Assembly: GCF_000024885.1 (NCBI RefSeq)
Contig: NC_013512.1
Coordinates: 496,001-560,000, forward strand
Origin: Sulfurospirillum deleyianum DSM 6946
GTDB lineage: Bacteria > Campylobacterota > Campylobacteria > Campylobacterales > Sulfurospirillaceae
Direction: 5' to 3'
Length of the DNA stretch: 64,000 nucleotides
In this document: positions 28,699 through 31,856 of the stretch, piece by piece
Numbering within the stretch: the stretch's first letter is position 1
Layout: the number at the start of each line of letters is the position of its first letter
Made by a program: the position numbers and the translations under genes
The notes under the pieces: model-generated
Seen by the model: only the letters and a program-made list of their open reading frames with translations
The model's database searches: none
Told to the model about the DNA's origin: nothing

Positions 28699-29892
28699 TT
28701 AGAGAATATTGTTAAATAAGATACCAATACCCCATGCAAAATAGATTGCCATCCATGCAATCATAATATAGAGGGTGGATTGTCCTAGTTTGCTTACAAG
28801 CGCATCTTTAGAACCATCAAAAACACCTTCGTTTTTACCGACTTTCCATGCCATGGTTAAGAGATAGGCTACCCCTACAAATCCCATAATAAGGAACGTT
28901 GAGAGGAACATAACAATCGTTGGAATCTCAAGATTGACAGGATAGTCATAGATGTTATAGCCCAAATCTATCATCAGATCAAAACGAATCAGCTCTCTGA
29001 TGGTTGAAATCAAAAGGGCAACGATGACTAAAACTAAGGTTGTGTAGTAGCTATTGCGATTGGTTTTCGCCATCGCCAAGAGCAGTACAACTCCCACAAT
29101 CGTAGCAAGGGATACAGGATGAAAGAGGTAGTTGATTTGGAACATCCATGCGACAAAAAGAACAGCACTGATTAGCAATCCACTGACCGCAAGTGTGGTG
29201 CCTAATTTAGCACTGTACTCAATAAAAGATGCTTCAAAATCTTTACGGGTGGATAAAAAACGGCTGTAATTTTGTAAGAAAATTCCTACCACAGGAATGC
29301 TCAAACTCACCATAAATGCAAGGCGAATGGTATCAACATTAAATGTCCAGCCACTCGTATCAACCACACCATTAGGTGCGTACATATTCATCCATTCAGT
29401 TGGCATAAGTGACGTTACGGTAAAGTTATGCATCAAAATACCCGCAAAAACCAAAATAGCAAATGAGATAAACCCTATGAAGGTACTACTTGATTTTTGA
29501 GCTTTATTGGCATAGTAGTACCAATAATACATACTATAACCCACAATCAAACTATAAATAAAAATGAAAACCCACATACCAGAGAGCGTATTGGTTACGT
29601 ACCAATTTGGGTCATAAATGACTTGTGTAAACAAAAGTGGTGCAACTCCTAAAACAATCAAAATTGAAACGCTGATTTTGCCTGTTTGAATCAGGTGTGG
29701 TGTTAAAATACTCCAATACTTATCGCTACTTCCCTTTGCAGAACCGTAAAGCGAAAGCCCCAAGGAACCTAATGAAAGAAGTACAAAAGCGATATGCAAT
29801 GCCCATGTTAAAACATAGAGTATTTGAAAAATGATAGGATAAAAAGGAACTCCCGCAGGGTCTCTTAGTGCCAATAATACAGATGCGTCCAT
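28699..29892 (-). CDS. Membrane subunit of a bd-type oxidase
   Basis: A 397-residue polytopic protein with about nine hydrophobic helices. TWALHIAFVLLSLGSLG (His33) in the first helix looks like the heme-ligand helix of the CydA family rather than a typical CydB. A region LGVAPLLFTQVIYDPNWY follows. It has none of the canonical CydA quinol-loop or GRQPW sequences. It is encoded 9 bp after the cytochrome c-fused CydA-like gene, so the two are probably partner subunits. The exact subunit type is uncertain. Confidence 0.68.
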   Translation of the reverse strand: MDASVLLALRDPAGVPFYPIIFQILYVLTWALHIAFVLLSLGSLGLSLYGSAKGSSDKYWSILTPHLIQTGKISVSILIVLGVAPLLFTQVIYDPNWYVTNTLSGMWVFIFIYSLIVGYSMYYWYYYANKAQKSSSTFIGFISFAILVFAGILMHNFTVTSLMPTEWMNMYAPNGVVDTSGWTFNVDTIRLAFMVSLSIPVVGIFLQNYSRFLSTRKDFEASFIEYSAKLGTTLAVSGLLISAVLFVAWMFQINYLFHPVSLATIVGVVLLLAMAKTNRNSYYTTLVLVIVALLISTIRELIRFDLMIDLGYNIYDYPVNLEIPTIVMFLSTFLIMGFVGVAYLLTMAWKVGKNEGVFDGSKDALVSKLGQSTLYIMIAWMAIYFAWGIGILFNNIL

Positions 29893-29901
29893 GTTTTCTC
29901 C

Positions 29902-31239
29902 TTAGTATTTAAGCGATGCGAGGTATTCAGCCATGGCATCGTATTCATGTTCGGGTAGTTTAAGGGTTGGCATGTAGGAAAATGCACCATCACCCATTGC
30001 ATATAAAATGGCTTTCACTCCCTCTTTGTCCATGCCTGTTAACTTATCTTTGAGTGGTCGATAAACCCCTGTTGTCTCCAAAGAGTGGCAGTTAGAACAC
30101 GCCATTTTTGCAAGAAGCGCACCTGCTTCAAGTTTATTTTCTTCGGTAATCGTTTTAAGGCGTTTAGGAACAAAAGGGTTTACATGTAAAAGCCCTTTCT
30201 CCGCAATAATCGGAAGCTCACTTTTAATGTTTTTACCAGGAACATCACGACTGATGATTTGGTTAGAGTAGATGTATTGACCCGCAACATATGGTTTTCG
30301 CATAGACTCTCTAAGCTTCTCACCTGACCACAATCCTGAAATAAGAATGACAGCTATCATCGTACTTGCAAGAGCTGGATGAATCAGTTTTGGTTTGATG
30401 ATAGCGATTGCAAAATAGCTCATAAAAACAAGGGTGAGGATGATTCTATTTTGAATAATTGTCTCTTTTGAAAAGGCAAAAACCGCATGGGCATTATCAG
30501 GTAATGTTCCCATATACCAGACAAAGAAGAAGAGGGTAATAAACCCACCAAAAATACTTACATAACCCATTTTACGGCTCAGTTCATTGGAGAGTTCTTC
30601 ATTTTCCTTGCGCATAGCACTGGAAATCAACAATCCAATAACCCCTGACATCATAATCATAAAGCCAACACGTAAGAACATATGCGGGAAGGTATTGATA
30701 CCAAAAAAAGCATCACTCGCACTACCGGTTGCATAGTAGGCTTGTGTACCTGGCCACATCATAAAGCTGATAATACCAATAATCAGCGCTAAGGTTCCCA
30801 CCGAAGCAATCGCAAATGTATAGGTTAGTTGTAAATGTGTTTTTTTATCTATTTTGTTCATGAAGTAAACCAGCACAAAAACGCCAATGACTTCATAAAT
30901 AAAAAAGACCCATTCCGTTGCCCAGACCCACACAAAGTTGTGAATGAGCGCACTAATGCCCCTAGGACTAGCCGCCGTTGCCGTGTACCAAATGCCCGGT
31001 CCTGTAATCGAACCCAAAACATAGGAAAATATCAGCAAGAACATGCCGTACTTTTTCATGTACGGGTAGTAATCACTTCGATTTTCTTTATAGGCTTTGT
31101 GTGCCAAAAAGGCAAACAACATCGCCGCTCCAACAGAAGTATGTGAAAACAAGATGTGTATCGTGCCCGTAATACCCATCATCCAAGCACTTCCATACTC
31201 AGGAAAATAAAACAATGGAAATTGTCCTATTATATCCAT
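29902..31239 (-). CDS. Cytochrome bd-superfamily subunit I with fused cytochrome c
   Basis: A 445-residue protein. The first about 320 residues hold roughly eight helices of the CydA fold: His28/His33 in helix 1, ATEWVFFIYEVIG with Glu109 and Glu116, and FPHMFLRVGF with His186. The C-terminal domain has a heme c site CSNCH (381-385) and a likely distal Met423 in YMPTL. The long quinol-binding loop and GRQPW of quinol bd oxidases are missing. This fits the OR-C family of the bd superfamily, predicted to take electrons from a c-type cytochrome. AAAGGAG precedes the start. Divergent from marR. Confidence 0.78.
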   Translation of the reverse strand: MDIIGQFPLFYFPEYGSAWMMGITGTIHILFSHTSVGAAMLFAFLAHKAYKENRSDYYPYMKKYGMFLLIFSYVLGSITGPGIWYTATAASPRGISALIHNFVWVWATEWVFFIYEVIGVFVLVYFMNKIDKKTHLQLTYTFAIASVGTLALIIGIISFMMWPGTQAYYATGSASDAFFGINTFPHMFLRVGFMIMMSGVIGLLISSAMRKENEELSNELSRKMGYVSIFGGFITLFFFVWYMGTLPDNAHAVFAFSKETIIQNRIILTLVFMSYFAIAIIKPKLIHPALASTMIAVILISGLWSGEKLRESMRKPYVAGQYIYSNQIISRDVPGKNIKSELPIIAEKGLLHVNPFVPKRLKTITEENKLEAGALLAKMACSNCHSLETTGVYRPLKDKLTGMDKEGVKAILYAMGDGAFSYMPTLKLPEHEYDAMAEYLASLKY

Positions 31240-31385: not shown

Positions 31386-31414
31386 TTGACATTAATTAGA
31401 TATCTAATTATAAT
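31386..31414 (+). promoter_or_regulatory. Consensus sigma70 promoter of marR
   Basis: TTGACA (31386-31391), a 17-bp spacer and TATAAT (31409-31414) form a perfect consensus promoter. Transcription should start near 31421, right at the ATG (31422), so the mRNA may be leaderless. The spacer is filled by a palindromic operator. Confidence 0.8.
31393..31410. promoter_or_regulatory. MarR operator 1
   Basis: TAATTAGATATCTAATTA is a perfect 18-bp palindrome lying between the -35 and -10 boxes of marR. A bound dimer would block RNA polymerase, so autorepression is expected. A second, 16/18 copy precedes the cupin gene. Confidence 0.75.
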
Positions 31415-31421
31415 ACTCCTT

Positions 31422-31856
31422 ATGAAAAAACAACGACTTATAGCGCTTTCTAGCCGCTTGGCGGAAAAAGCCAATCAATTTATCATTGCAGAGTTCAAAA
31501 AACAGGAGCTTTTTGATATTGCCCCCAGTCATGGTGATATTTTGAGTTTGTTATTTGATGGCAATGCCCATGAAATGAGCGAGATTGCCAAAAAAATTCA
31601 TCGCACCAAACCCACTGTTACCGTTTTAGTAGAAAAACTCGAAAAAAATGGCTATGTGCAACGCATAAAATCAGAGAGTGATGCACGCTTTACGATGGTT
31701 TTACTCACTCAAAAGGGATTTAAACTCCAACCAATGTTCGAAATGATTTCAGAGAAACTGAATGCCTTAGCGTATTTTGGTCTTCGTGATGAAGAGGCGA
31801 TGCTTTTAGAGATTTTGCTTGAAAAAGCGATTGTTAATTTTGAAAAGCAAGAATAA
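31422..31856 (+). CDS. MarR-family transcriptional regulator
   Basis: About 144 residues from ATG 31422. The winged helix-turn-helix covers about residues 40-105: EMSEIAKKIHRTKPTVTVLVEKLEKNGYV is the recognition region and SDARFTMVLLTQKG the wing. It probably represses its own promoter and that of the cupin gene through matching 18-bp operators. No Shine-Dalgarno sequence is seen and the predicted transcript begins at or next to the start codon. Its ligand is unknown. Divergent from the bd-type oxidase, which it might also control. Confidence 0.88.
   Translation: MKKQRLIALSSRLAEKANQFIIAEFKKQELFDIAPSHGDILSLLFDGNAHEMSEIAKKIHRTKPTVTVLVEKLEKNGYVQRIKSESDARFTMVLLTQKGFKLQPMFEMISEKLNALAYFGLRDEEAMLLEILLEKAIVNFEKQE

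Follow-up and report, generated by a model that had tools for sequence, protein, structure and literature searches.

Two adjacent genes of Sulfurospirillum deleyianum DSM 6946, here called A and B, probably encode a member of the cytochrome bd superfamily, a membrane-bound oxygen reductase of the OR-C type fed by a c-type cytochrome and not by quinol. The pair lies in a 64,000-nucleotide stretch of DNA (the window) of a genome that consists of a single 2.31-Mb contig. Gene A combines ligands of the oxygen site on a CydA-like core with the loss of the quinol motif and the presence of a C-terminal cytochrome c. OR-C enzymes, reportedly described by Murali, Gennis and Hemp in 2021 as having a CydA-like core that lacks the quinol site, a C-terminal haem c and a proposed c-type donor, share all three features with A. 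The OR-C label is our best reading and rests on these features; the tree, from which published OR-C and OR-N sequences are absent, places A only as outside the quinol-using family (qOR). A sequence-only reading of the locus had already concluded that the enzyme is probably not a quinol oxidase and that it matches the OR-C family, whose proposed donor is a c-type cytochrome. The tree, the missing quinol motif, the haem c and the cytochrome genes that adjoin the pair in Pseudomonadota all point the same way.

Abstracts and passages of published work divide the bd superfamily into the three families qOR, OR-C and OR-N (PMC13189123, PMC10839748) and describe searches of genomes with OR-C profiles (PMC11707229). 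At this level of the literature our searches found no biochemical study of a bd enzyme bearing haem c. We found no mention of the A-B pair in the passages of a Sulfurospirillum paper that names cydAB, and no passage on bd enzymes beyond the reference list in those of a Campylobacterota review. As far as found in these sources, A-B belongs to a kind that has been proposed from genomes and is already known, but is biochemically unproven.

Both open reading frames are on the minus strand, where the sequence-only reading had located them, with a gap of nine bases between them (Table 1). Each is preceded by AAGGAG, which resembles a ribosome-binding site. The closest named relatives of A are found in metagenome-assembled genomes of Campylobacterota (98% identity), and records of Sulfurospirillum mostly share 85-92% identity with it (63% in S. 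diekertiae). The divergent MarR-family gene next to A carries in its promoter spacer the palindrome ATTAGATATCTAAT, which is predicted to be a likely autoregulatory operator of that gene. A MarR regulator was rejected as a component of the system: it adjoins the pair in only one of 80 loci, that of a near-conspecific, and it is therefore treated as local.

Table 1. Features of the A-B locus, in window coordinates
Feature	Position	Strand	Basis or remark
Gene A, CydA-like subunit with C-terminal haem c	29902-31239	-	445 aa ORF
Gene B, CydA-prime-like partner	28699-29892	-	397 aa ORF
Eight-helix membrane core, A residues 17-322	30274..31191	-	AlphaFold2 helices, CydA chain match, positive-inside pattern
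A His28 codon	31156-31158	-	
A His33 codon	31141-31143	-	
ESMRKPY, A residues 311-317, degenerate GRQPW region	30289..30309	-	HMMER alignment to 5doq, L-INS-i columns, motif counts
Class I cytochrome c domain, A residues 369-445, predicted periplasmic	29905..30135	-	
CSNCH haem c attachment motif, A residues 381-385	30085..30099	-	Kept in 121/122 A rows
MarR-family regulator gene, divergent, possible local regulator	31422..31856	+	
Sigma-70 consensus (12/12) upstream of MarR gene	31386..31414	+	
Palindrome ATTAGATATCTAAT, 14 bases	31395-31408		Within sigma-70 spacer

Fold and conserved residues of gene A

The relationship of A to CydA is recovered at the level of domain models, profiles and predicted structure. 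The Pfam model PF01654 matches residues 19-209 (E 1.5e-5), a marginal match of 24.2 bits against a cut-off of 26.2 bits, and a cytochrome c model spans residues 371-444. Searching the single sequence against PDB sequences gave no match. A profile built from 54 relatives of A matches CydA of Geobacillus (5doq; E 1.1e-5), and a profile-profile comparison with 17 canonical CydA sequences in hhalign gave E 3.1e-6. The AlphaFold2 model (mean pLDDT 83.7) has eight membrane helices followed by a soluble domain whose fold matches cytochromes c, and solved CydA chains match its residues 8-328 with Z scores of 24.2-27.5 over 307-314 residues. Helix 9 is missing from the model, and the alignment to CydA stops at E. 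coli residue 462. The CydA-like helices with a His ligand and the C-terminal CSNCH haem c domain had been recognised from the sequence, and both are borne out by these matches and by the conservation of His28. Lysines and arginines number 3, 3, 2 and 2 in the predicted inside loops of A and 0, 1, 0 and 1 in the outside loops. These counts fit a C-terminus, and with it the haem c, on the periplasmic side, the compartment in which bacteria attach haem c. The bd fold of the A and B models also resembles ActC and ActF of alternative complex III and PsrC of polysulfide reductase, at Z scores (14.8-17.4) close to the level that helical bundles can attain by chance.

Conservation was examined in 122 aligned A sequences. 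The Campylobacterota members came from two collections, with duplicates from the same genome included; L074 and L083 are truncated, and L144, which has one in-frame stop, was excluded from alignments and tree. Every sequence that reaches the respective column keeps His28, Glu109, Glu116, Arg190, Glu307, Arg310, Glu311, Arg314, Lys315, Pro316 and the CXXCH motif, the one sequence without CXXCH being truncated. In the alignment His28 is equivalent to E. coli His19, Glu109 and Glu116 to Glu99 and Glu107, and Glu311 and Arg314, in the GRQPW region, to Glu445 and Arg448. The columns of His28 and Arg314 are invariant across all 81 sequences of A, B and canonical CydA used in the tree. Passages of PMC6853902 identify Glu99 and Glu445 as axial ligands of haems d and b595, His186 and Met393 as the ligands of haem b558, and an extra Leu as the residue that displaces Glu99 in the E. 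coli protein. According to the alignment, this Leu is absent from A, and the two helix-3 glutamates are spaced by 7, as in Geobacillus CydA.

The Q-loop motif QPxKxxAxE occurs in none of the 122 A sequences and in 18 of the 27 canonical CydA sequences, in agreement with the loss of the quinol loop claimed in the sequence-only reading. The loop between helices 6 and 7 measures about 13 residues in the AlphaFold2 model. The same reading had also considered GRQPW to be lost. This is true of the literal motif, which is absent from all 122 A sequences and present in 27/27 canonical ones, but not of its working residues: the motif class E-x-x-R-x-P-[YWF], which includes GRQPW, is kept in 121/122 A sequences (the sole exception is truncated L083) and in 27/27 canonical CydA, and A retains the Glu and Arg as E-x-x-R-K-P-aromatic. 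The column of the b558 ligand His186 never holds His in A or in main-type B. The residue found there in A is Arg190 in the hhalign alignment and Leu189 in the alignment to 5doq and in that of the tree, the register being off by one. No conserved Met was seen in A at the position of Met393, in the helix 7 region, which aligns poorly; we are less sure of a loss of this second b558 ligand.

Of the 77 close Campylobacterota sequences, 8 carry Ile instead of Met423, the expected axial ligand of haem c; they include L026, L028, L029, L030, L079 (S. diekertiae), L080 and L082. Three of these (L029, L080 and L082) have no Met whatever at the usual distance, so that the haem c of such proteins may have an odd ligand.

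The partner B and the tree of subunits

The partner was said in the sequence-only reading to carry a CydA-like His in helix 1 and to lack a clear CydB sequence, and our comparisons likewise bring it closer to CydA than to CydB. His33 is kept in 111 of 111 B sequences. The profile of B matches that of A with E 4.5e-7, that of CydA weakly, by profile only, with E 0.0075, and that of CydB with E 0.29, no better than chance. Neither the CydA nor the CydB Pfam model (PF01654, PF02322) is matched by any of 51 B sequences, and B was accordingly rejected as a CydB. The B of the window matches no Pfam model and contains no CXXCH; scattered weak matches of single B sequences are to unrelated families. 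Searched against PDB sequences, the B profile recovered only an unrelated peptide (E 0.7). The AlphaFold2 model of B (pLDDT 88.9) has 10 predicted helices. In an initial Foldseek search the two highest-ranking chains were CydB, none under E 0.001, and structural comparison of the model found a CydA chain as the best match in all ten listed bd entries (Z 23.0-26.2). A further motif, which the earlier reading did not mention, is Glu300-x-x-Arg303, both residues of which are kept in nearly all close B sequences. The helix-3 Glu pair is absent from B in the alignment. Our preferred reading of B is a subunit of the CydA-prime type, one that lacks part of the oxygen site but could hold a haem.

The tree was built from 81 sequences and 353 columns and includes 27 canonical CydA, 32 A (19 of them close) and 22 B sequences (14 close), the close ones being picked for spread; L198, which gave no CydA ORF, was excluded. 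Three separate groups were recovered with supports of 100/99 (canonical CydA), 100/99 (A) and 100/97 (B), and all 200 bootstrap trees that were examined contain the canonical group. A therefore falls outside the quinol family, the outcome expected from the sequence-only reading. Note that the root is arbitrary and that the program warns of long branches meeting, and no branching order of the three groups is claimed.

Within both A and B the tree separates a main group from a distant one, with weak support for distant A (61/32). Distant pairs carry haem c on both subunits, with CXXCH in A and in B, as seen in L033:5424-9739, L035, L146, L147, L157, L160 and L161; behind the L033 pair come genes for a thioredoxin-like protein and a CcoG-like 4Fe-4S protein. 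Given haem c on both distant subunits, it seems that main-type B exchanged its haem c for two helices, or that the change ran in the opposite direction. Distant B sequences replace the Glu of E-x-x-R with His (7/8) and, unlike main-type B, have His at the b558 column (5/8).

Distribution and neighbouring genes

Among 298 sampled Campylobacterota genomes, 34 gave a match; 32 of these have a full-length A, and the other two matched through the cytochrome c only. A scan of named genomes listed 80 loci from 189 relatives, mostly Campylobacterota, and 31 of these 80 belong to Pseudomonadota and Verrucomicrobiota (44-53% identity). B stands directly behind A in 79 of the 80 listed loci, the remaining one ending at a contig end, and in 29/29 further loci (L004-L032). 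A and B lie side by side in so many genomes that the pairing is not due to chance. The surroundings of the pair otherwise vary among loci, which indicates that A-B travels as a unit.

The gene that follows B provides the strongest evidence for a cytochrome c donor, evidence that is indirect for the window itself. Sequence behind B is available in 29 of the 31 non-Campylobacterota loci. In 26/26 of the Pseudomonadota loci among them, a small c-type cytochrome ORF with one or two haems lies directly behind B on the same strand, and its product is predicted to be periplasmic. All but one of these 26 cytochromes are homologous to the cytochrome that is annotated after A-B in a Methylosinus plasmid. 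Such an ORF is absent in 3/3 Verrucomicrobiota loci. When cytochrome c ORFs passing a signal-peptide filter were counted by distance, 24 of 73 loci had one at 0-1 kb behind B, and every other bin held 0-3. No cytochrome c gene adjoins the pair at the window locus, and only some Campylobacterota loci have one. A c553-like gene adjoins the pair in several Sulfurospirillum loci, on the opposite strand in L041, L042, L043 and L072 and upstream in L079 and L082.

Genes for a RegB/RegA-like redox sensor and regulator adjoin the pair on plasmids of Methylosinus (L204:8047-9943) and Agrobacterium (L206:7766-9554), with NCBIfam scores under the curated cut-offs. As a general partner such regulators were rejected, RegA-like homologues being near the pair in only 4/80 loci. 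Three plasmid records call A no more than 'cytochrome c' or 'c-type cytochrome'; for B, two of them give 'hypothetical protein' and one gives 'cytochrome C'. With such annotations A-B has probably been missed in counts of oxygen reductases.

The genome of the window also encodes a canonical CydAB (546 bits to PF01654), one haem-copper oxidase and a bc1-type cytochrome b, and the last two make a cytochrome c pool plausible. Two equal-scoring matches to bc1 cytochrome b (G000:C1:741198 and G000:C1:1860166) suggest that the bc1 locus may be duplicated.

Proposed mechanism, alternatives and significance

A would be the catalytic subunit. Its helices 1-4 and helix 8 retain the equivalents of His19, Glu99, Glu107, Glu445 and Arg448, so that it could hold two haems between these helices and reduce oxygen, with protons drawn from the cytoplasm. 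Missing from A are the Q-loop and helix 9 and, probably, the site of haem b558. With the chain ending after helix 8, the C-terminus would emerge in the periplasm, and the covalently bound haem c would adjoin the active-site end of helix 8 on that side. B would take the place of CydB as a second CydA-type subunit, probably binding haem or stabilising the pair. Electrons would pass from menaquinol through bc1 and a periplasmic cytochrome c to the haem c of A, then to the two active-site haems and to oxygen. Haem content, the role of B, the identity of the donor, oxygen as acceptor and the movement of charge we infer from sequence and models.

A more specific version is put forward tentatively, as a possibility we would not yet favour: a bd-type cytochrome c oxidase of two CydA subunits in which b558 is gone and haem c delivers electrons directly to b595/d, with a dedicated periplasmic cytochrome as third gene in Pseudomonadota and, in the branch of the window, a partner whose haem c was exchanged for two membrane helices. 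In that case bd enzymes and haem-copper oxidases would have reached cytochrome c oxidation independently.

This architecture can be placed among known systems. With the E. coli and Geobacillus CydAB of the qOR family, A shares the fold, the equivalents of the haem d and b595 ligands and the E-x-x-R-x-P motif; it differs in having lost the Q-loop, the b558 His and helix 9, in having gained haem c, and in a partner that is CydA-like and not CydB. The archaeal CydAA' enzymes (qOR4a) are quinol-using and pair two CydA-type paralogues as A-B does, whereas A-B has no quinol site and bears haem c. Passages on the OR-N CydAA' of Nitrospira and Nitrospina describe two CydA-type proteins lacking a quinol site with cytochrome c as proposed donor, as in A-B (PMC10839748, PMC12342949, PMC3578206), and state that cytochrome c is likely used by OR-N enzymes, experimental confirmation lacking (PMC10839748). 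The Nitrospina bd-like protein is described as having 14 helices, three of which replace the Q-loop (PMC3578206); judged by that description, A differs in its eight helices and haem c domain. OR-N sequences were sought in Verrucomicrobiota and Pseudomonadota and none was recognised.

The alternative that survives best, though unlikely, is that the pair reduces or detoxifies another ligand, such as nitric oxide or peroxide, or scavenges oxygen without conserving energy. Canonical bd enzymes have such side roles, and the genome also encodes canonical CydAB and a haem-copper oxidase; however, the conserved residues are those around the oxygen site, genes for nitric oxide metabolism were not conspicuous next to the pair (neighbours being annotated non-exhaustively), and canonical CydA is absent from 11 of the 32 A-bearing Campylobacterota genomes (by comparison of two match lists), so that A-B is not merely an auxiliary of CydA. 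Somewhat less likely still, A-B could be a quinol oxidase that binds quinol elsewhere, such as beside haem b595 in the space between helices 1 and 9, with haem c as an accessory relay. Passages on the bd enzyme of M. tuberculosis describe such a second quinol site beside haem b595 (PMC9846854), but helix 9, which forms part of it, is missing from A, the quinol motif occurs in no A sequence, and all 26 Pseudomonadota loci place a cytochrome c gene behind the pair. It is very improbable that A has no kinship with CydA and is some other membrane protein ending in a cytochrome c, for instance the urate oxidase PuuD or a relative of subunits of alternative complex III or polysulfide reductase. An abstract describes a membrane cytochrome c urate oxidase, and ActC/ActF and PsrC chains align too, but their Z scores lie far below those of CydA chains, and A conserves the set of CydA ligands. 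The Pfam matches of A at E <=1 are limited to PF01654, to two models of cytochrome c and to PF18509, a magnetochrome model of 30 positions that touches the haem c region at E 0.32, far below its cut-off.

Cytochrome bd as textbooks describe it oxidises quinol and leaves complex III out of the path. If A-B is indeed a cytochrome c-fed bd enzyme, charge would be moved by each electron both at bc1 and at A-B, unlike in quinol-fed bd. Coupling at bc1 would be regained while the bd oxygen site is kept, and haem b558 and the Q-loop would be dispensable. By genome evidence the pair spans sulfur oxidisers, methylotrophs and Campylobacterota, and the Pseudomonadota operon of A, B and cytochrome c would offer a direct candidate for the donor.
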